64,000 bases of DNA from Salinibaculum litoreum (GTDB taxonomy: Archaea; Halobacteriota; Halobacteria; Halobacteriales; Haloarculaceae), in the NCBI GenBank assembly GCA_009789175.1, contig CP046866.1, positions 186,001 to 250,000 of the forward strand. The letters are read 5' to 3'. Under the pieces are notes generated by a model that was given only the letters and a program-made list of their open reading frames with translations, did no database searches and was not told the origin of the DNA. Both the position numbers and the translations under genes were made by a program. Below, one piece after another: positions 9,761 through 21,120 of this stretch. Position 1 is the stretch's first letter, and each line of letters starts with the position of its first letter.

Positions 9761-11653
9761 GTGCGACCCCGGAAACTGCTCCGCATCGCCCGCTGGGAGG
9801 TCACCAAGAACGCGGGCGGGGTGGACAAGCGAACGCTCGCCGTTGCCGGCCTCGCAATCGCTCTCATCGCCGTTCTAGCCCCCGCCGTCGCCGCGCAAGG
9901 TGCGGTACTCGACGAGGGCATCTACCGCGTTGCCGTCGACGAGGACAGCCGCTACTACGACGTCGTCGAGGAGAATCCCACTTTCGTCGCGCGACCCGAT
10001 GCGACCCGCGAGGACCTCGGCGAGTCGGTCGACCTCTACATCGAGGACGGCTACGTCTCCCCCGCTGCGAGTCCGAAAGGGAGGGCCGCGAAGGAGGAAC
10101 TGCGCTCGGCGGTCCAGGCATACAACAACGAGCAACTGCGACAGGAAGCCAACCAGTCCGCGGCCTTTCCCGTCTCGGTCTCACTCGAGTACCGCGAGCA
10201 GTCACAGGCTGGGGGGACACTCGCGACGGACGGTGAGGACCCACAGCAGGTCAGGGACCCGGACAACCGGTCGGACAACCGGACGGGTGACGGCACGCCG
10301 GTCGATGGAAACGGGTCCAACGCAACGGACGGCACCGACGGAACGGACGGCACCGACGGCACTGATGGAACGAACGGCACCGACGGCACTGATGGAACGG
10401 ACGGCACTGCCGGGGCTCCTAACAGCGGGGGTCTCGGTGGCGCCGGCTCGGCTATCTCCGGCGACGGCGATTCGGTCGACTCGCCCTCGCAGCTCTCGCC
10501 ACCGTTTCCCTTCGAGTCGCTGGTGCTTGCGTTCGTCTTTATCATCCCGATGAACTTCCTGATTCAGGCCTACGGGAGTACGATACTCTCCGAGCGGCTG
10601 AACCGCCGGGGCGAGTTGCTGCTCGTTTCGCCGGTCTCGCGCTACGAGATTATCGGCGGGAAGACGCTCCCCTATTTCGCCGGTGCGATGGCAATCGAGG
10701 CGGTGATTGCAGTTGGGCTGACCTACGTTGGGACGGGGACCATTGGCGGGCTGGTCTCCATTGCCGCGATTCTCCCCCTGGTCGCGCTCTTTCTCGCCGC
10801 GACGTTCGTCGGCGCGATGTTCGCCCGCTCGTTCAAGGAACTCACCTTCGTTACCGTCACCATCACGGTCGGGCTGACGAGCTATGCGTTCGTGCCGGCC
10901 ATCTTCACCGACGTGACTCCCATCGCGCTCATCTCGCCGCTGACCGTCGTCGTCCGTGACCTGCAGGGCCAGGCCGTCGCAGCCCCCGAGTTCCTCTTCT
11001 CGGTGACGCCGCCGCTTCTGTCCGCGATTGTTCTTTTCGGGCTCGGCGCTGGGCTGTACCGCGAGGAAGATATGTTCGCCCAGCGGGCGATTCCGCTGAA
11101 GGTGCTGGATGCGCTTGCAGGCCCGGTTCGCAAGCGCTGGCACGTCGGGGCGATGGTCGCCGTGTTGCTGCCCTTCGTCTTCGTTCTCCAGTTGCTGGCT
11201 ATCGCCGTCCTGTTCGCGCTGGGTGAGGTGTCTATCCCGCTGTTGCTGGTCGTCGTCGCCGTCGTCGAGGAGATAGCCAAGAGCCTGCCCGTCTACGCCG
11301 CCTACGCGCACAAGCGCTTCGAGCGGTCAACGGTTTCCGCGCTGGTCCTCGGGGCCATCGCAGGGGCCGGGTTCTTCGTCGGCGAGAAGATTACCCAGCT
11401 CGCCCAGCTCGTCGGTCTGCCCGAACTCGCACAGGGACAGGCTGCGCTCCAGATAGCACCGACCGATGTCGGTGCCCCGATACTGATCGCGCTGTTTTTC
11501 CTCCCCTTGCTTCTCCACGGCGTGACGGCTGCCATCTCGGCAGTCGGTGCCAGCCGCGGCAAGCGCGCCTACGTCGTCGCGCTGGGTGTCGCGATGCTCG
11601 TCCATCTGGTCTATAACCTCGCCGTTCTCTCGGAGGTGCTTGGCAATGTCTAA
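9761..11653 (+). CDS. ABC-2 permease fused to a PrsW-type intramembrane protease domain
   Basis: 630 residues, GTG start 3 nt after the ATPase stop. Residues ~30-50 form TM1. Then comes a large external loop containing a Thr-Asp-Gly repeat (about residues 188-217), followed by five TM helices of an ABC-2 permease (about 250-440). The C-terminal ~180 residues form a second TM bundle with the PrsW/CPBP-like motif E503-E504-I-A-K507 in a hydrophobic helix, and further His residues in LLLHGVTAAIS and HLVYNLAVL. PrsW proteases cleave membrane-bound anti-sigma factors in bacteria. Here the domain is covalently tied to an exporter, so the protease may process what the exporter handles. Its 3' end overlaps the next permease by 8 nt. 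Confidence 0.88.
   Translation: MRPRKLLRIARWEVTKNAGGVDKRTLAVAGLAIALIAVLAPAVAAQGAVLDEGIYRVAVDEDSRYYDVVEENPTFVARPDATREDLGESVDLYIEDGYVSPAASPKGRAAKEELRSAVQAYNNEQLRQEANQSAAFPVSVSLEYREQSQAGGTLATDGEDPQQVRDPDNRSDNRTGDGTPVDGNGSNATDGTDGTDGTDGTDGTNGTDGTDGTDGTAGAPNSGGLGGAGSAISGDGDSVDSPSQLSPPFPFESLVLAFVFIIPMNFLIQAYGSTILSERLNRRGELLLVSPVSRYEIIGGKTLPYFAGAMAIEAVIAVGLTYVGTGTIGGLVSIAAILPLVALFLAATFVGAMFARSFKELTFVTVTITVGLTSYAFVPAIFTDVTPIALISPLTVVVRDLQGQAVAAPEFLFSVTPPLLSAIVLFGLGAGLYREEDMFAQRAIPLKVLDALAGPVRKRWHVGAMVAVLLPFVFVLQLLAIAVLFALGEVSIPLLLVVVAVVEEIAKSLPVYAAYAHKRFERSTVSALVLGAIAGAGFFVGEKITQLAQLVGLPELAQGQAALQIAPTDVGAPILIALFFLPLLLHGVTAAISAVGASRGKRAYVVALGVAMLVHLVYNLAVLSEVLGNV
10321..10410 (+). repeat. In-frame minisatellite encoding Thr-Asp-Gly repeats
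   Basis: Repeating ACNGACGGN-type 9-nt units with 18- to 27-nt higher-order copies (for example ACCGACGGCACTGATGGAACG occurring twice) encode a run of TDG/TNG triplets. They form a flexible, highly acidic and hydroxyl-rich linker in the external loop of the permease-protease. Copy number is likely to vary between strains. Confidence 0.85.
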
Positions 11654-12722
11654 GAGTCGTGGGCTGCTCGATGACGTGCGAACCACCATCGCCCGACGGG
11701 AGATTGCCTCGCTGTCCCGGGAGAAGACCATCGTGCTGGCGTTGCTCATTCAGCTCTTTATCGCCGCCTTTTCGTCGTTTCTCGTCGTCGGATTGACCTC
11801 GCTGTATGACCCGAGTTCCGTCGAGGGCGAGGGCATCCGCGTCGGCGTCTCAGGGGATGTCCAGCAGGACCTCAACGAGACTGCCCGCGAAGTCGACGGC
11901 GTGACTGCCGTCGAGTACGACACACAGGACGGCGCACTGTCGTCATTCGACAGGGGTGAAGTCGACGCCGTCCTTGTGGCGAATCGGACAGCCAACGGCT
12001 CCCGCATCGACGTAACTGCTATCGCCCCCGAAGAGAACCTCCGGACGACGCTCGTGGTCGTCAAGATACGGGAGCTCCTGACCGAGTTCGAGCGCACAGA
12101 GCGCGACCGGCGGTCCGTCGACCTCTCCTTCCAGCCCATCGAGTTGCCGGAAGACGCCGACGCCAGCCCGTACTTCGGCTTCACCTACACCGTCCTGATT
12201 CCGCTGTTGTTGTTCCTGCCGCCGTTTATCAGCGGCTCCGTCTCAGTCGACGCCGTAACGGAGGAGATAGAACGGGGGACGCTCGAACTGCTCAGGGTCG
12301 CCCCCGTCTCGCTGGTCGACATCATCGACGGGAAGGCCTTGGGAATGGCGCTTCTGGCACCGGCACAGGCGCTCCTGTGGATATTCCTGCTGAGTCTCAA
12401 CAACATCGCCGTCAGCAACGTGTTGCCGATACTGGTGTTCGTGACGGCTATCGCGACCGTCGTCGTCGTCCTCGGGGTCGTCCTCGGGTTAGCGACTGCT
12501 CGCCGCCGGCAGGCCCAACTCCTCTATTCGGTACTCGTCATCCTGCTGTTCGGGCTTGCCATCTTCCTGCCCGAACACCCGGCGACGACCGTCGCCAAAC
12601 TCGCCGTCGACAGCGCGACACTCGGCACGTACGCGCACGTGGTCGGGTTCAGCGTCGGGGCTGCGCTCCTGTATGCCGGTGCCCGGCGGTACGCGTCGAG
12701 TATCGACGTCGAATCACTCTGA
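11646..12722 (+). CDS. ABC-2 type transporter permease
   Basis: 358 residues from the ATG at 11646, inside the end of the preceding gene (8-nt overlap). TM1 lies at about residues 28-50 (VLALLIQLFIAAFSSFLVVG). An external domain of ~130 residues follows, then five or six TM helices from about residue 175 (FTYTVLIPLLLFLPPFISG). The motif EEIERGTLELLRVAPVS is the conserved ABC-2 coupling region. It forms the second half-transporter with the ATPase and permease-protease upstream. Substrate unknown. Confidence 0.92.
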   Translation: MSKSRGLLDDVRTTIARREIASLSREKTIVLALLIQLFIAAFSSFLVVGLTSLYDPSSVEGEGIRVGVSGDVQQDLNETAREVDGVTAVEYDTQDGALSSFDRGEVDAVLVANRTANGSRIDVTAIAPEENLRTTLVVVKIRELLTEFERTERDRRSVDLSFQPIELPEDADASPYFGFTYTVLIPLLLFLPPFISGSVSVDAVTEEIERGTLELLRVAPVSLVDIIDGKALGMALLAPAQALLWIFLLSLNNIAVSNVLPILVFVTAIATVVVVLGVVLGLATARRRQAQLLYSVLVILLFGLAIFLPEHPATTVAKLAVDSATLGTYAHVVGFSVGAALLYAGARRYASSIDVESL

Positions 12723-12759
12723 GGGGGTTCCGGTTTTCCAGTGGCTGGCCGCGAGCGGG

Positions 12760-12768
12760 GACTTTATT
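12760..12768 (+). promoter_or_regulatory. TATA-like element for the kinase-like/halocyanin gene
   Basis: ACTTTATTC lies about 30 nt before the ATG at 12795, in the short gap after the ABC operon. It implies a separate transcript. Confidence 0.4.
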
Positions 12769-12794
12769 CGGTGGAGACATGTACAGTTCCGGTA

Positions 12795-14693
12795 ATGGAC
12801 GATGCTGCCGAACGGTTCGCGGACGACGTGCCGAGAATCCACGATGTCCGGAGCATCTCGGAAGGGGCTGTCGTTCACTACTACCATGGTTCGCTGGACC
12901 CCGACCAGCAGACTGTCCGTATTTTCACTCTTAGTCCGACAGTCTCCGACGAGCGGGTCCGTGAGGCGTTTATACATGCTGCTGGACAGTGGCACAACCC
13001 CAGCACGCACGCGAACATCGTCACCATCCACGACCGGGACAGACGGCCCCGTCCGTGGATTGCTGCTGACATGGTCGGCGGCAAGCGTCTCGATGTCGTT
13101 CAGTCCGAACTGTCGGACCCGGAGATAGGGAGCGTCATCGCGGATGCGGCCGAAGCTATCCGCAACGCGTCGTTGTACAACACGTCACACTTCGACCTCA
13201 CGCCGGAATCTATCTGGGTCTGTGACACCGACGACGGCCTCTCTGGGCTGGTCGATGGCTGGGGGCTCACCCGGGCGTGTCAGGTCGCTGCTGGAGACAC
13301 GCCTGTGACCGCATACACGCCGCCCGAACTCCTCGATTCCCCTGACAGTGGCTCCGAACGAACGGACGTGTACGGCCTGGGTGCGGTCGCATATGCCGCC
13401 TTGACCGGCACAGCACCCATCAGCGGACGTGACCTCGATACAGCGATTCGGGACAACGACATCACGCCACCGACTGCAGTCTCGCCAGCCCTCCCAGACG
13501 CTGTCGATGACGTGTTGCTGACCGCACTCGCTGCTGACCCGGGTGAGCGTCAGTCCTCGGCGTATGAGTTCAAAACTGCCATCGAGCAGGCGCTGCCCGC
13601 CGACAGTGACAGCCCAGGTGGGGCGAGTGCCGCTGGGGGGACAGCCACCCAGTCACCGGCAGCGACGGACTCCGAGCCAGACGAACCGAACCCGCAACCG
13701 AGCAACGCCCACTCACAGGACACACAAACGGACCCACAGCCGACCGGACCCGCGGACAAAAGCGACACAACCGCTGGCTCGCCCTCTCGACGGGCCGTCC
13801 TCGGACTCGTGGGCCTTGGCGGCGCGGGGGCTGGCCTGGGATGGCTCTTCTGGCAGCCCCTGTCTGAACTCGGACGTGACTTTCTCTCTGCAAGTGAGTC
13901 GTCACCACGCCCGGACTCAAGCGACGGGAGAGACCCCCCGAGTGGTGAGTATCTCTCTGACGCCAACGCGTACGACGGCTTCGTCGATGCGCGCGGAAAC
14001 AGTACAGTCCCTGTGCGCGTCGGAGGTGGTGACGGCCTTGCGTTCGACCCGCCGGCAGTCCATATCGACCCCGAGACGACGATTCGCTGGGAGTGGACTG
14101 GAAGGGGTGGTTCGCATAACGTCGTCGCTATCGACGGCACGTTTAAATCTGGCGCACCGACTGCGAACCGCGACCAGGCGTTTACGTACACGTTCTCGGA
14201 GCCTGGCAGTACCAGCTACTACTGTTTGCCCCATCGCGTATCGGGTATGAAAGGACTCGTCCTCGTCGGCGGCGAGGAACTCACGGAATACACTGATTCG
14301 TATACCTCAGGTGACCGGGATAGTACGCCTTCCTCTACGCTCGACGACTATCTCGCCGATGCCAACGCATACGACGGTACCGTCGTCAACGCACTGGGTG
14401 CTGATACCGTCCTCGTCGGTGTCGGGGCTGGTAACAGCGGCCTCGCGTTCGACCCGGCAGCAGTCCGCATCTCTCCCGGAACGACAGTCGTCTGGGAGTG
14501 GACTGGCGAAGGTGGCGCACACAACGTCATCCACGATGTCGATGCAAGCTCACAGAGCGTGGAAGCGTTTGACAGCGGCAGCACACAGTCTTCGGGCACC
14601 TTCGAGTACACCTTCAGTACGTCGGGCACGTATCTCTACTACTGTACACCACACAAGGCAGTAGGGATGAAGGGTGCCGTTATCGTCGAGTGA
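12795..14693 (+). CDS. Kinase-like domain, membrane anchor and two halocyanin (blue copper) domains
   Basis: 632 residues. Residues ~20-268 follow a eukaryotic-type protein kinase: HANIVTIHD (72-80), HFDLTPESI (132-140, for HRDLKPEN), GWGLTR (155-160, for DFGLAR), TPPELL (APE region), TDVYGLGAVAYAALTG (190-205). The VAIK lysine is not evident (TVRIFTL), the catalytic-loop Lys and Asn are Thr and Ser, and the Mg-binding Asp is Gly155, so it is probably a pseudokinase. Residues 270-330 are an acidic Pro/Thr/Gln linker. SRRAVLGLVGLGGAG at 331 begins a single hydrophobic segment. Two plastocyanin-like domains follow with full copper ligand sets: H441, C477, H480, M485 and H576, C617, H620, M625. 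The likely topology is kinase-like domain inside, copper domains outside. ATG 12795 is preferred to upstream in-frame codons because of the TATA box spacing. Confidence 0.9.
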   Translation: MDDAAERFADDVPRIHDVRSISEGAVVHYYHGSLDPDQQTVRIFTLSPTVSDERVREAFIHAAGQWHNPSTHANIVTIHDRDRRPRPWIAADMVGGKRLDVVQSELSDPEIGSVIADAAEAIRNASLYNTSHFDLTPESIWVCDTDDGLSGLVDGWGLTRACQVAAGDTPVTAYTPPELLDSPDSGSERTDVYGLGAVAYAALTGTAPISGRDLDTAIRDNDITPPTAVSPALPDAVDDVLLTALAADPGERQSSAYEFKTAIEQALPADSDSPGGASAAGGTATQSPAATDSEPDEPNPQPSNAHSQDTQTDPQPTGPADKSDTTAGSPSRRAVLGLVGLGGAGAGLGWLFWQPLSELGRDFLSASESSPRPDSSDGRDPPSGEYLSDANAYDGFVDARGNSTVPVRVGGGDGLAFDPPAVHIDPETTIRWEWTGRGGSHNVVAIDGTFKSGAPTANRDQAFTYTFSEPGSTSYYCLPHRVSGMKGLVLVGGEELTEYTDSYTSGDRDSTPSSTLDDYLADANAYDGTVVNALGADTVLVGVGAGNSGLAFDPAAVRISPGTTVVWEWTGEGGAHNVIHDVDASSQSVEAFDSGSTQSSGTFEYTFSTSGTYLYYCTPHKAVGMKGAVIVE

Positions 14694-14774
14694 GCGGCGC
14701 ACACAGTCACGAACTGCCCACGAACGGCAGCGACCGTCCCCGCGAGTCCATCGTGACGTGGGCCTGTTTCTCCG

Positions 14775-14784
14775 AAGTTTTTCT
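14775..14784 (+). promoter_or_regulatory. TATA-like element for the aldo/keto reductase operon
   Basis: AGTTTTTCTA lies about 27 nt before the ATG at 14808. Confidence 0.4.
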
Positions 14785-14807
14785 ACGCCACCGGTCAACG
14801 CTCATCC

Positions 14808-15782
14808 ATGGAGTACACCACCCTCGGTGGGACCGGCATGGAGGTCAGCCGCATCTGTCTCGGTTGCATGAGCTTTGGCACGCCGGAGTGGCGTGAGTGG
14901 GTCCTCGACGAAGCGGACAGTCACCCTATCATCGAGCGTGCCATCGACCTCGGTATCAACTTCTTCGACACCGCCAACATGTATTCGACCGGCGAGTCCG
15001 AGCGCATCCTCGGCAACGCCTTGGAGGGTCGGCGCGAGGAGATGGTCGTCGCCACGAAGGTGTTCTTCCAGATGGACGAGGCGGACCCCAACAGCGGGGG
15101 GCTCTCCAGAAAGACCATCGAGCAGGAACTCGACGCGTCACGGGAACGGCTGGGGATGGACACCATCGACCTCTATCAGATTCACCGCTGGGACGACGAC
15201 ACGCCCATCGAGCAGACGATGCGCGCACTCGATGATGCCGTCCGCCGCGAGAAAGTCCGCTATCTCGGCGGGAGTTCGATGTGGACCCACCAGTTCGCCG
15301 AGGCGTTACACACAAGCGAGCGCCTCGGCCTCGACCAGTTTCTCACCATGCAGAACCACTACAATCTCCTCTATCGCGAGGAGGAACGCGAGATGCTCCC
15401 CTTCTGTGAAAAGAAAGACATCGGGGTGATTCCGTGGAGCCCACTCGCCCGTGGCTATCTCGCGCGACCCCACGAGGAGTTCGACGCGACTGCCCGCGGG
15501 GAGTCCGACGAGTACGCGAGAGAACACCCCTACTTCGAGGGCAACGGCCAGGAGATAAACGAGCGCGTCCAGGAACTGGCCGAGCAGAAAGACGCCACGA
15601 TGGCCCAGATTGCGCTGTCGTGGGTCCTGCACAAGGATGTCGTCGACGCACCCATCGTCGGCACCACGAGCGTCGAGCATCTGGAGGAAGCCGTCGAGGC
15701 GCTCGACATCTCGCTGTCGGACAGTGATATCGAGTGGCTGGAAGCGCCCTACGAGCCAGTCAGCGTCAGCGGGCACGAGTGA
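14808..15782 (+). CDS. Aldo/keto reductase
   Basis: 324 residues, TIM-barrel NADPH-dependent oxidoreductase. The family tetrad is visible: Asp in NFFDTANMYSTGESE, the Tyr of the same motif, Lys in VVATKVFF and His in LYQIHRWD. The late barrel motifs QNHYNLLYREEEREMLPFC and VIPWSPLARGYL match the YajO/AKR group. One nucleotide separates its stop from the nitronate monooxygenase-like gene, so the two form an operon. Physiological substrate unknown. Confidence 0.93.
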   Translation: MEYTTLGGTGMEVSRICLGCMSFGTPEWREWVLDEADSHPIIERAIDLGINFFDTANMYSTGESERILGNALEGRREEMVVATKVFFQMDEADPNSGGLSRKTIEQELDASRERLGMDTIDLYQIHRWDDDTPIEQTMRALDDAVRREKVRYLGGSSMWTHQFAEALHTSERLGLDQFLTMQNHYNLLYREEEREMLPFCEKKDIGVIPWSPLARGYLARPHEEFDATARGESDEYAREHPYFEGNGQEINERVQELAEQKDATMAQIALSWVLHKDVVDAPIVGTTSVEHLEEAVEALDISLSDSDIEWLEAPYEPVSVSGHE

Positions 15783-18239: not shown

Positions 18240-19684
18240 AACTCGACCCGCGAACGATTCCGTACCGACTGGTCTCCAACGGCCTCCGTATCGCGGGTAT
18301 TCTGCTGTTCAGCGTCGTCACCTCCGGCGGCGACGGCTTCGGTATCGCGGTACTGGTCGGACTGGTCGCCCTCGGTCTCTTGCTCACGGTCGGCTGGGAG
18401 TACGCGCGGTTCCAGCGCATCGACTACGAACTCACTCCGGACACCTTCGATGTCAGGTCGGGCGTGTTTTCGCGGCGCGAACGGGAGATTCCGTTCCATC
18501 GCATCCAGAACGTCGATATCGAACAGAACGTCGTCCACCGGCTGCTGGGCATCGCCGAGGTCCGTCTGGAGACGGCTGGCGGCGGCTCGACGGAGGCCCA
18601 ACTCCAGTACGTCAGCCGGACGGAAGCCGACCGCCTGCAGGATGTCATCAGCGACCGCAAGCGGGGTGCAACAGCCGGTGAAGAGTCGGACGCGGTCGCC
18701 GACGAGACGATTTTCGAACTCACGGACCGGGAACACATCATTCTCGGACTCGTCTCCGCTGACTTCCGGTTCCTGGGCTTTTTCTCGGTGTTGCTCCCGG
18801 TCATCGTTCCTCAAGTCGCCGGTGCGCTCGACCCCAGTACGCGGCTGTTGCTGTTGCTCGGGCCAGCCCTGGCGTTTGTTGCTCTCGTTGGATTCTGGCT
18901 CCTGAGTGGCTTCCTCCAGATTCTCCGGTACTACGACTTCACGCTCACACGGCACGGCGAGGAACTCCGCTACGAGCGAGGCCTCCTGCAGCGGTACACC
19001 GGGACAGTCCCGCTGTCGAAAGTCCAGACTGTCACCCTTCGTGAGAACGTCCTCGCACGGACGCTTGGATATGCCTCCCTCGTCATCCAGACTGCCGGCT
19101 ACGCACCTGGGCAAGGTGACTCCCAGGTCGAGTCAGCGGTCCCGATAGCGAAACGCGACCGCGCTGTCGCGCTGGCCCGCGAAATCGAGCCGTTCGGTGA
19201 CATCTCGTTCACTCGCCCACCCAAGCGGGCACGGTCGCGCTACGCTGCCCGATACACGCTCGCCTTGCTCGGACTGACGGGGCTGTTCTGGGTAGGTAAC
19301 AGTGTCACCGGTTGGCTACCGTTCTGGTACGCACCGCTGGCAGCGATACCCATCACCCCCGTCGCGGCACACCTCAAGTGGAAACACCTCGGCTACTACG
19401 TCGACGAGGAGTACGTCATCACTCGACGGGGCTTCTGGCGTCGCCAGACTATCGTTGTTCCCCACGACCGGGTCCAGACTGTCTTCAGCAGCCAGACCAT
19501 CTTCCAGCGCCGTCGCCACCTGGGGACTGTCACCGTCGACACCGCCGGCGGTGGCGGTATCGCAAGCGGCGACGCCGTCGCGCTGGATATCGACGCCACG
19601 ACTGCCGACCAACTGCGCGAGGACGTTGCCGGACGCCTCCAGCAGGCGCTTGGTGGACCCTCCTCTCAGAGTGCCAGCCCCTGA
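18236..19684 (+). CDS. PH domain-containing membrane protein (YdbT-like)
   Basis: 482 residues with a GTG start coupled to the upstream YdbS-like gene. Three repeats of a two-TM unit plus bPH2 domain are visible. The domain hallmarks recur: DVRSGVFSRREREIPFHRIQNVD, ELRYERGLLQRYTGTVPLSKVQTV and VITRRGFWRRQTIVVPHDRVQTV. The arrangement suggests an internally triplicated membrane scaffold. Its last 19 nt overlap the convergent ccdA-like gene. Confidence 0.9.
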   Translation: MKLDPRTIPYRLVSNGLRIAGILLFSVVTSGGDGFGIAVLVGLVALGLLLTVGWEYARFQRIDYELTPDTFDVRSGVFSRREREIPFHRIQNVDIEQNVVHRLLGIAEVRLETAGGGSTEAQLQYVSRTEADRLQDVISDRKRGATAGEESDAVADETIFELTDREHIILGLVSADFRFLGFFSVLLPVIVPQVAGALDPSTRLLLLLGPALAFVALVGFWLLSGFLQILRYYDFTLTRHGEELRYERGLLQRYTGTVPLSKVQTVTLRENVLARTLGYASLVIQTAGYAPGQGDSQVESAVPIAKRDRAVALAREIEPFGDISFTRPPKRARSRYAARYTLALLGLTGLFWVGNSVTGWLPFWYAPLAAIPITPVAAHLKWKHLGYYVDEEYVITRRGFWRRQTIVVPHDRVQTVFSSQTIFQRRRHLGTVTVDTAGGGGIASGDAVALDIDATTADQLREDVAGRLQQALGGPSSQSASP

Positions 19685-20367
19685 ATCCCATCGAAGACGA
19701 CAAAAAAGAAATACAGCTGGACGACGCCGGCAACGACCAGCATCCCGCCGGCGAAGCGGGTCACCTGCTGGCCCGACGCGGCGAGTCTATCGACCAGCGT
19801 GTCGCGGCCAAGAGCCGTCGCGAGCGTGACGAGGACCAAAAGCGAGACCATGCCTGCCGCGTACGCACCGAGAAGCGAGACAGCGTTGACCGGGTTCGCC
19901 AGCGCCAGCGAGACGAGGCCGATAAACAGCGGCCCGGTACACCCGGCCGCAGCAGCGGCGTAGACGACGCCAAAGCTGAAATAGCCGACCGGACCCGACC
20001 GCCGCTCGGGAAGCCTGATGCGAACCGACAGCCGGGAGAGACGGCCGGTGACCATCCCAGCCCCGAGAACGATGAGGACGACACCAGCGACCAGTTCGAG
20101 GACGGCGACGTTCCGAAGGACCCGCTCCCCGAGGACGAAGGCGATGGCCGCGAGGAGGGCAAAGACACTCAGCAACCCGAGACTGGTCACTGCTGCCACG
20201 ACCAGCCCGTGCAGGACTCGCTTGCCGAGTGTCTGGCTGGCCGTCCCATCGTCCTGTCCGAGAAAATACGCCACGTAACCGGGCAACAGCGGCAACGCAC
20301 AGGGTGCGAAAAACGTCGCCGTCCCGAGACTGAATGCGAAGCCGAGTTCGACTGCACTCCCGGTCAC
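19666..20367 (-). CDS. CcdA-like thiol-disulfide transport protein
   Basis: 233 residues, six TM helices. CcdA/DsbD-type proteins carry electrons from cytoplasmic thioredoxin across the membrane. Both redox cysteines are visible: one in FFAPCALPLLPGY near the N-terminus and one in AAGCTGPLFIG in the fourth helix. GTG start at 20367; no in-frame ATG is available. It lies 31 nt after a TlpA-like gene on the same strand, forming a donor-acceptor pair, and overlaps the upstream convergent PH gene by 19 nt. Confidence 0.9.
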   Translation of the reverse strand: MTGSAVELGFAFSLGTATFFAPCALPLLPGYVAYFLGQDDGTASQTLGKRVLHGLVVAAVTSLGLLSVFALLAAIAFVLGERVLRNVAVLELVAGVVLIVLGAGMVTGRLSRLSVRIRLPERRSGPVGYFSFGVVYAAAAAGCTGPLFIGLVSLALANPVNAVSLLGAYAAGMVSLLVLVTLATALGRDTLVDRLAASGQQVTRFAGGMLVVAGVVQLYFFFVVFDGIQGLAL

Positions 20368-20398
20368 TGCGCGCTCCCCCGTCGACTGCTGTCCTGGC

Positions 20399-20917
20399 TC
20401 ATCGTATCGCCTCTATCTCTTCGGTGATTGTCCCGGCGGCTGCCAGCCCGGTGTGTCGCCAGACCTCCGCTCCGTCGGCGTCGAGGAGTACCTTCGTGGG
20501 AATGTCATCGACGTCATACGCCTGGAAGGCCTGAAACGTCGGGTCCGAGGTCACCGGCCAGTTCCCATCGTAGTCCTCCCAGAACGCGGTGATTGCCTCG
20601 GTGTCGTCCTCTCTGGTAATCGATACGAGGTGGAGGTCGGGAAACTCCTCGCTGACGGCCCGTAGCTCTGCCATCTGTGGTTTACATGGGGCACACCAGG
20701 TCGCGAAGAAATCGACCAGCGCCGCCTCGCCGTTCGGTCTGACAGGCACTTCTCCGCCGGGTGACCCCTGCGCTTCGACGGCATCCAGCGCAAGCGTCTC
20801 GGCGGTGTCTGCGGTGTCGCTCCCTCCGGTGTCCGCCAGCGGATTCACACTCGAACAGCCGGCCAGCCCTGCCGCTGCCGTGAGGCCCAGGAGATACTGC
20901 CGGCGAGAGCGGGTCAT
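20399..20917 (-). CDS. TlpA-like thioredoxin-fold lipoprotein (Tat-exported)
   Basis: 172 residues from the ATG at 20917. N-terminus MTRSRRQYLLGLTAAAGLAGC is a twin-arginine signal ending in a lipobox, so the protein is anchored outside the membrane. The thioredoxin fold has a CxxC active site, TWCAPCKPQ, and the cis-Pro region DDIPTKVLLD. It probably accepts electrons from the CcdA-like protein encoded just downstream and reduces extracytoplasmic disulfides or metalloprotein thiols. A second TlpA/CcdA pair lies at 51459-52669. Confidence 0.92.
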   Translation of the reverse strand: MTRSRRQYLLGLTAAAGLAGCSSVNPLADTGGSDTADTAETLALDAVEAQGSPGGEVPVRPNGEAALVDFFATWCAPCKPQMAELRAVSEEFPDLHLVSITREDDTEAITAFWEDYDGNWPVTSDPTFQAFQAYDVDDIPTKVLLDADGAEVWRHTGLAAAGTITEEIEAIR

Positions 20918-21120
20918 ACAGTCCGTGACGGGAGCGGTGCTCAAATTCACACGGCGGGTGTGACAGTTTGTCGCACAACCACTCCCACACCATCCTCCTG
21001 GCCTGAGCAGCGAGCAACCACCAGCCGTCTGTCGGTGCTATCAAACACTCCGGAGGCTCCTGCGCCACTTTTCGGGTCGTGGGCGGTACTGTTTTCCCGC
21101 GTAGGTGTGTCCACGCTGCT

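Follow-up and report, generated by a model that had tools for sequence, protein, structure and literature searches.

Within the 64,000-nucleotide stretch of DNA analysed here (the window), from a salt-loving archaeon, one unbroken frame on the plus strand (12795-14693) encodes a complete 632-residue protein in which a Hanks-type kinase-like domain is followed by a low-complexity linker, a single hydrophobic segment and two halocyanin domains. The frame opens with an ATG at 12795 and ends with a stop at 14691-14693; an alternative GTG start at 12741 would make the protein 18 amino acids longer. The sequence-only reading had placed a kinase-like domain, a membrane segment and two four-ligand halocyanin domains in one frame, and the open frame, the profile matches and the ligand positions all bear this out. 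The same kinase–transmembrane–halocyanin order is present in other genera and is therefore not due to chance, and a frameshift or chimera is ruled out by the clean frame together with the equal architecture in other genomes.

The gene is flanked on one side by an ABC-2 transporter set, made up of an ATPase, a PrsW-type membrane protein and a permease, and on the other by an aldo/keto reductase gene, and no signalling or copper gene is evident directly beside it. Upstream, positions 9761-11653 encode a membrane protein of 630 residues that is associated with the ABC transporter, contains NGTDGTDG repeats and has a PrsW-type protease domain at its C-terminus. On the minus strand at 19666-20950, some 5 kb away from the halocyanin gene, a CcdA-like membrane protein (recognised by eye and with no Pfam match) adjoins a thioredoxin-like lipoprotein, a pair that is possibly related to envelope redox or copper. 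Window positions 12722-14808 correspond to an empty site in a sister species (L223 8493-8554), which represents the genus with a second genome: there the permease gene directly adjoins the aldo/keto reductase gene and the kinase-like gene is absent. Since the locus is otherwise intact, the gene is accessory.

A degenerate kinase domain

The kinase-like domain covers about residues 20-266 (12852-13592) and is identified by profile and structure-sequence matches. PknB is the nearest solved kinase, with E 1.9e-12 in a single-sequence search, and a profile of the protein's own degenerate clade matches PknB with E 5e-28 over most of the domain. The Pfam Pkinase profile gives E 3e-7 and 30.4 bits, slightly below its cut-off of 31.7. 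An AlphaFold2 model of this part, built on only two sequences, had a pLDDT of 37.5, did not confirm the kinase fold and was discarded. Because the profile match is significant and spans most of the domain, the protein is assigned by fold to the Hanks-type protein kinase superfamily, and the kinase-like domain first proposed from the letters holds up.

In the family alignment the position of the ATP-binding (VAIK) Lys is taken by Phe44 (12924-12926) and that of the DFG Asp, which is part of DWG in active relatives, by Gly155 (13257-13259). The catalytic loop HFDLTPESI (13188-13214) retains Asp134, with Thr136 in place of the Lys and Ser139 in place of the Asn. The earlier reading had named these same losses; alignment with relatives adds the helix-C Glu, replaced by Ala62, and leaves the HRD-type Asp134 as the sole retained one of the catalytic residues tested (VAIK Lys, helix-C Glu, HRDxKxxN and DFG Asp). 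The fold-defining residues (HxxL, WG, PE, helix-F Asp and helix-I Arg) are all retained. Much the same losses occur in close relatives, several of which also have no HRD Asp (HGALSP, HGSLSP, HLALDP), whereas one, L122, retains HLDLKPDN, and among these degenerate relatives too the fold-defining positions persist. This comparative evidence fits the initial call of a pseudokinase: judged by its replaced residues, the kinase half is a pseudokinase that does not carry the residue set of a catalytically active Ser/Thr kinase.

Linker, membrane segment and predicted outer copper domains

The linker that follows (residues 277-330, 13623-13784) had been described as acidic, a description that needs correction: the stretch 277-332 is not notably acidic but rich in Pro, Ser, Thr, Gly and Ala, with 8 acidic and 2 basic residues among its 56. 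A hydropathy scan finds one hydrophobic signal-anchor segment at residues 334-352 (13794-13850), and the motif SRRAVLG at residues 331-337 (13785-13805) reads as a twin-arginine motif, although it lies internally and its TIGR01409 score of 15.1 bits is slightly below the cut-off of 16.7. Across the family, an [S/T/N]RRxxL-like motif stands immediately before the transmembrane segment in about 24 of the 26 members that combine an N-terminal kinase with a recognised exported domain, by our own count, which includes many close relatives. It is absent from all multi-spanning members and from two members with a very hydrophobic transmembrane segment and carboxypeptidase-regulatory-like domains. Because the motif marks this segment in nearly all members with an exported domain, it is likely that the copper half is exported through Tat behind a cytosolic kinase domain, and the predicted topology puts the kinase-like half inside the cell and the halocyanin domains outside.

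The TIGR03102 halocyanin profile scores 241.9 bits against a cut-off of 93.8 and matches in two stretches. Domain 1 covers residues 384-492 (13944-14270), with ligands H441, C477, H480 and M485, and domain 2 residues 517-632 (14343-14690), with ligands H576, C617, H620 and M625; in both the type-1 copper set of His, Cys, His and Met is complete, all eight ligands being retained. Structure prediction agrees, giving two cupredoxin folds with a mean pLDDT of 88.9 and plastocyanins among the best structural matches; the pTM is 0.52, so the model does not fix how the two domains are oriented to one another. On profile and ligands both are clear members of the halocyanin family with predicted copper sites, which on our reading would be occupied in the exported protein. 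Domain 2 has its closest match (67% identical) in a halocyanin elsewhere in the same genome and the two domains are 56% identical to each other, so that the outer half looks locally recruited, in a halocyanin tree that is poorly resolved. A scan of genome contigs gave mostly halocyanins, with one fusion among them, and tandem halocyanins were also found as stand-alone proteins.

Relatives with exchanged outer domains

Relatives of the kinase half were sought in the taxonomic family and a class-wide sample, some 450 distinct genomes, and many were found; as scoring was confined to the top few candidates of each genome, counts of relatives are lower bounds. The tree built from 103 kinase domains groups 54 rows in a degenerate clade (support 98), which in turn contains a 13-row clade (support 99) that includes the window protein. 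The protein is placed by this tree in a haloarchaeal family of degenerate kinases. Members of the 13-row clade have the kinase–linker–transmembrane half in common and differ in what lies outside, which may be PBP_like_2, SBP_bac_5, Peripla_BP_6, PQQ propellers or a multi-spanning membrane part. In more distant members the kinase is C-terminal, behind PQQ, PKD or CARDB modules, and PKD, CARDB or Laminin_G modules lie outside in other family members.

Outer domains have been exchanged on one kinase–transmembrane chassis, and swapped modules on a constant chassis are the pattern expected of exchangeable sensors. Binding-protein relatives were also considered as parts of importers; no ABC importer genes (permease or ATPase) are evident next door to the versions inspected, an assignment to importers was rejected on these grounds, and sensing is therefore favoured over uptake. 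A search with an active-kinase profile returned distant kinases only, and viral contigs scanned with the kinase part held no relative. One odd architecture came to light at L155 2923-4728, where an intact-looking kinase domain is joined to domains 2 and 3 of elongation factor Tu / eEF1A and a transmembrane segment is lacking.

Repeated fusion of kinases to halocyanins

Fusions of a kinase to a halocyanin are found in the window genome, in G121, G332 and G370, and in three Halorubrum-group genomes. The G121 fusion carries two halocyanins and intact kinase motifs, and those of G332 and G370 carry one halocyanin each, likewise with intact kinase motifs, and have flanking genes in common. The three Halorubrum-group fusions consist of a degenerate kinase, one halocyanin and then a binding-protein-like part, and their orthologues in other species are without the halocyanin. 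Two fusion groups (L147/L159, and L145/L206 with L205) retain VAIK, HxDLKPxN and DWG, with kinase scores of 125 and 113 bits for their representatives.

On the kinase tree the halocyanin trait requires six state changes and turns up in no fewer than four separate places, and an AU test, run on a 38-row tree rather than the 103-row tree, rejects one clade uniting all fusions (p-AU 8.4e-8). Halocyanins have been recruited onto kinases repeatedly and independently, and this recurrence suggests a sensor, as yet uncharacterised, of the copper or redox state. A sample of the phylum held no fusion outside the haloarchaeal order, and plasmid records gave halocyanin matches, none of which covers 80% of the query.

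Two further observations belong to these genomes. The Halorubrum group offers a natural comparison with and without the halocyanin between the transmembrane segment and the binding-protein-like end (L161, L162 and L163 against L165-L168 and L180). At G121:C1:1465000-1500000 (L146, L147) many kinase genes surround a PP2C-type phosphatase gene, the gene for the kinase with a double halocyanin lying among them, and similar kinase clusters are seen at G079:C42 (L128, L129) and G062:C2 (L156).

A proposed receptor-like pseudokinase and its alternatives

The reading that we favour, and consider somewhat probable, is that the window protein is a transmembrane receptor-like pseudokinase that passes the copper or redox state outside the cell inward by non-catalytic means. 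The kinase-like half would remain in the cytosol, and the internal twin-arginine signal-anchor would export both halocyanin domains via Tat and keep them held at the membrane. Once outside, the copper domains could take up copper, or pass electrons to and from redox partners at the cell surface, and their copper or redox state would alter the conformation or oligomerisation of the protein. The inner pseudokinase may then relay that state without catalysis, either by offering a docking surface or by pairing allosterically with an intact kinase. One putative partner is an intact Hanks kinase with an FHA-like end, whose gene neighbours those of a vWA protein and a PP2C-type phosphatase in the same genome (L201 3646-8478; G000:C1:342600-347500).

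An inside-outside sensor had already been suggested by the sequence-only reading, and the suggestion fits the swaps of outer domains, the repeated recruitment of halocyanins and the existence of intact kinases with halocyanins; the sensing of copper or redox state is a step that we infer. Other considerations count against it. Halocyanins are common in these genomes and some of the recruitment could therefore reflect supply, the sister species lacks the gene, its direct neighbours in the window include no evident signalling or copper gene, the structure model did not confirm the kinase fold, and signalling by a halocyanin through a single helix has no precedent that we know of.

It is unlikely, if less so than the explanations that follow, that the protein is instead a membrane-anchored electron carrier whose halocyanins perform surface electron transfer and whose kinase-like half is a cytosolic handle for anchoring, positioning or export regulation. 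Such a carrier would sit well with the stand-alone tandem halocyanins, with a pseudokinase that is not expected to phosphorylate and with a family that frequently has ordinary exported carriers or binding proteins as its outer modules. However, a large conserved kinase fold would be a costly anchor where lipid or transmembrane anchors would suffice, and the PKD, CARDB or Laminin_G modules of other members carry no electrons. The retention of a complete kinase in some fusions and the accessory status of the gene within the genus also speak against a carrier.

An active unconventional kinase, or a nucleotide-binding switch, in which a shifted Asp154 and the retained Asp134 replace the lost residues and copper outside controls the activity, appears improbable. 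Asp134 and the VD(G/E)WG context are indeed kept, halocyanin relatives with full catalytic residues exist, and some bacterial pseudokinases have been modelled as ATP-binding despite their losses (PMC12599244). Yet none of the ATP-binding Lys, helix-C Glu, catalytic Lys, catalytic Asn and DFG Asp survives, and the HRD Asp is lost too in the close relatives noted above. A decaying or neutral accessory gene, the functionless leftover of domain shuffling, is equally improbable, for while degenerate kinase residues and a sister-species locus intact but for this gene would suit it, the full-length frame, eight copper ligands, twin-arginine transmembrane segment and fold-defining kinase residues are all retained and the degenerate clade is diverse and widespread.

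Relation to known systems

Transmembrane receptor Ser/Thr kinases with outer sensor domains are well established (PMC6213207). The PASTA kinases PknB/PrkC, and PknD with its propeller, have a common plan with the window protein, namely a cytosolic kinase fold, one transmembrane segment and an outer sensor domain, and all three elements are found here, with residues 334-352 as the segment, the halocyanins as the outer part and the topology as predicted. Unlike those receptor kinases, the window protein has a dead kinase, two blue-copper outer domains and a twin-arginine motif at the membrane segment, and the Pfam and NCBIfam profiles find no PASTA repeats that would make it a PASTA kinase.

Two bacterial systems offer partial likenesses. 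ActPs1 is an actinobacterial pseudokinase family in which a C-terminal PQQ_2 domain is common but not universal, many members carrying it, and in which most members are missing the G-helix (PMC12599244). Compared by domain layout, it likewise sets a pseudokinase before another module, and PQQ_2 is present in some relatives of the window protein as well; ActPs1 is, however, described from bacteria, whereas the window protein is archaeal and has halocyanins instead of PQQ_2, a domain that Pfam does not find in it. RqkA (DR2518) of Deinococcus radiodurans, a Ser/Thr kinase that responds to stimulation by PQQ, a redox cofactor, serves like the transmembrane kinases with outer sensors as a precedent for the favoured reading, and resembles the window protein in joining a redox-cofactor-linked module to a Hanks-type kinase (PMC11007091). 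RqkA is active and has a propeller with PQQ, whereas the window protein combines copper domains with a degenerate kinase. Among halocyanins the setting also differs, most of those found here being short proteins of one or two domains and those of the window protein sitting on a kinase-like receptor chassis.

The literature searched held no paper on a kinase–halocyanin or kinase–plastocyanin fusion and nothing specific on haloarchaeal pseudokinases or internal Tat signals. It does not contradict the opening claim that no characterised protein has this architecture; the architecture is nevertheless not unique, being present in several uncharacterised haloarchaeal proteins, and the wider plan of kinase, transmembrane segment and outer sensor already occurs in known receptor Ser/Thr kinases. 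Within the literature searched, the window protein is an uncharacterised variant of that plan.

To our knowledge, Ser/Thr kinase signalling at the archaeal membrane is poorly known. A chassis whose outer domains can be exchanged would provide archaea with an equivalent of receptor kinases, in which the outer domain hints at the signal. We propose, tentatively, a transmembrane form of copper or redox sensing particular to haloarchaea, in which blue-copper carriers, exported by internal Tat signals while the kinase domain stays in the cytosol, act as outer receptors of kinases and pseudokinases and are interchangeable with nutrient-binding receptors on one chassis. The members with intact kinases make this idea testable by phosphorylation, and a non-catalytic role can be tested in the dead ones. 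A Tat signal placed internally, after a folded kinase domain, would widen what Tat is thought to accept, and blue-copper receptors, if true, would tie respiratory or copper state directly to cytosolic regulation.
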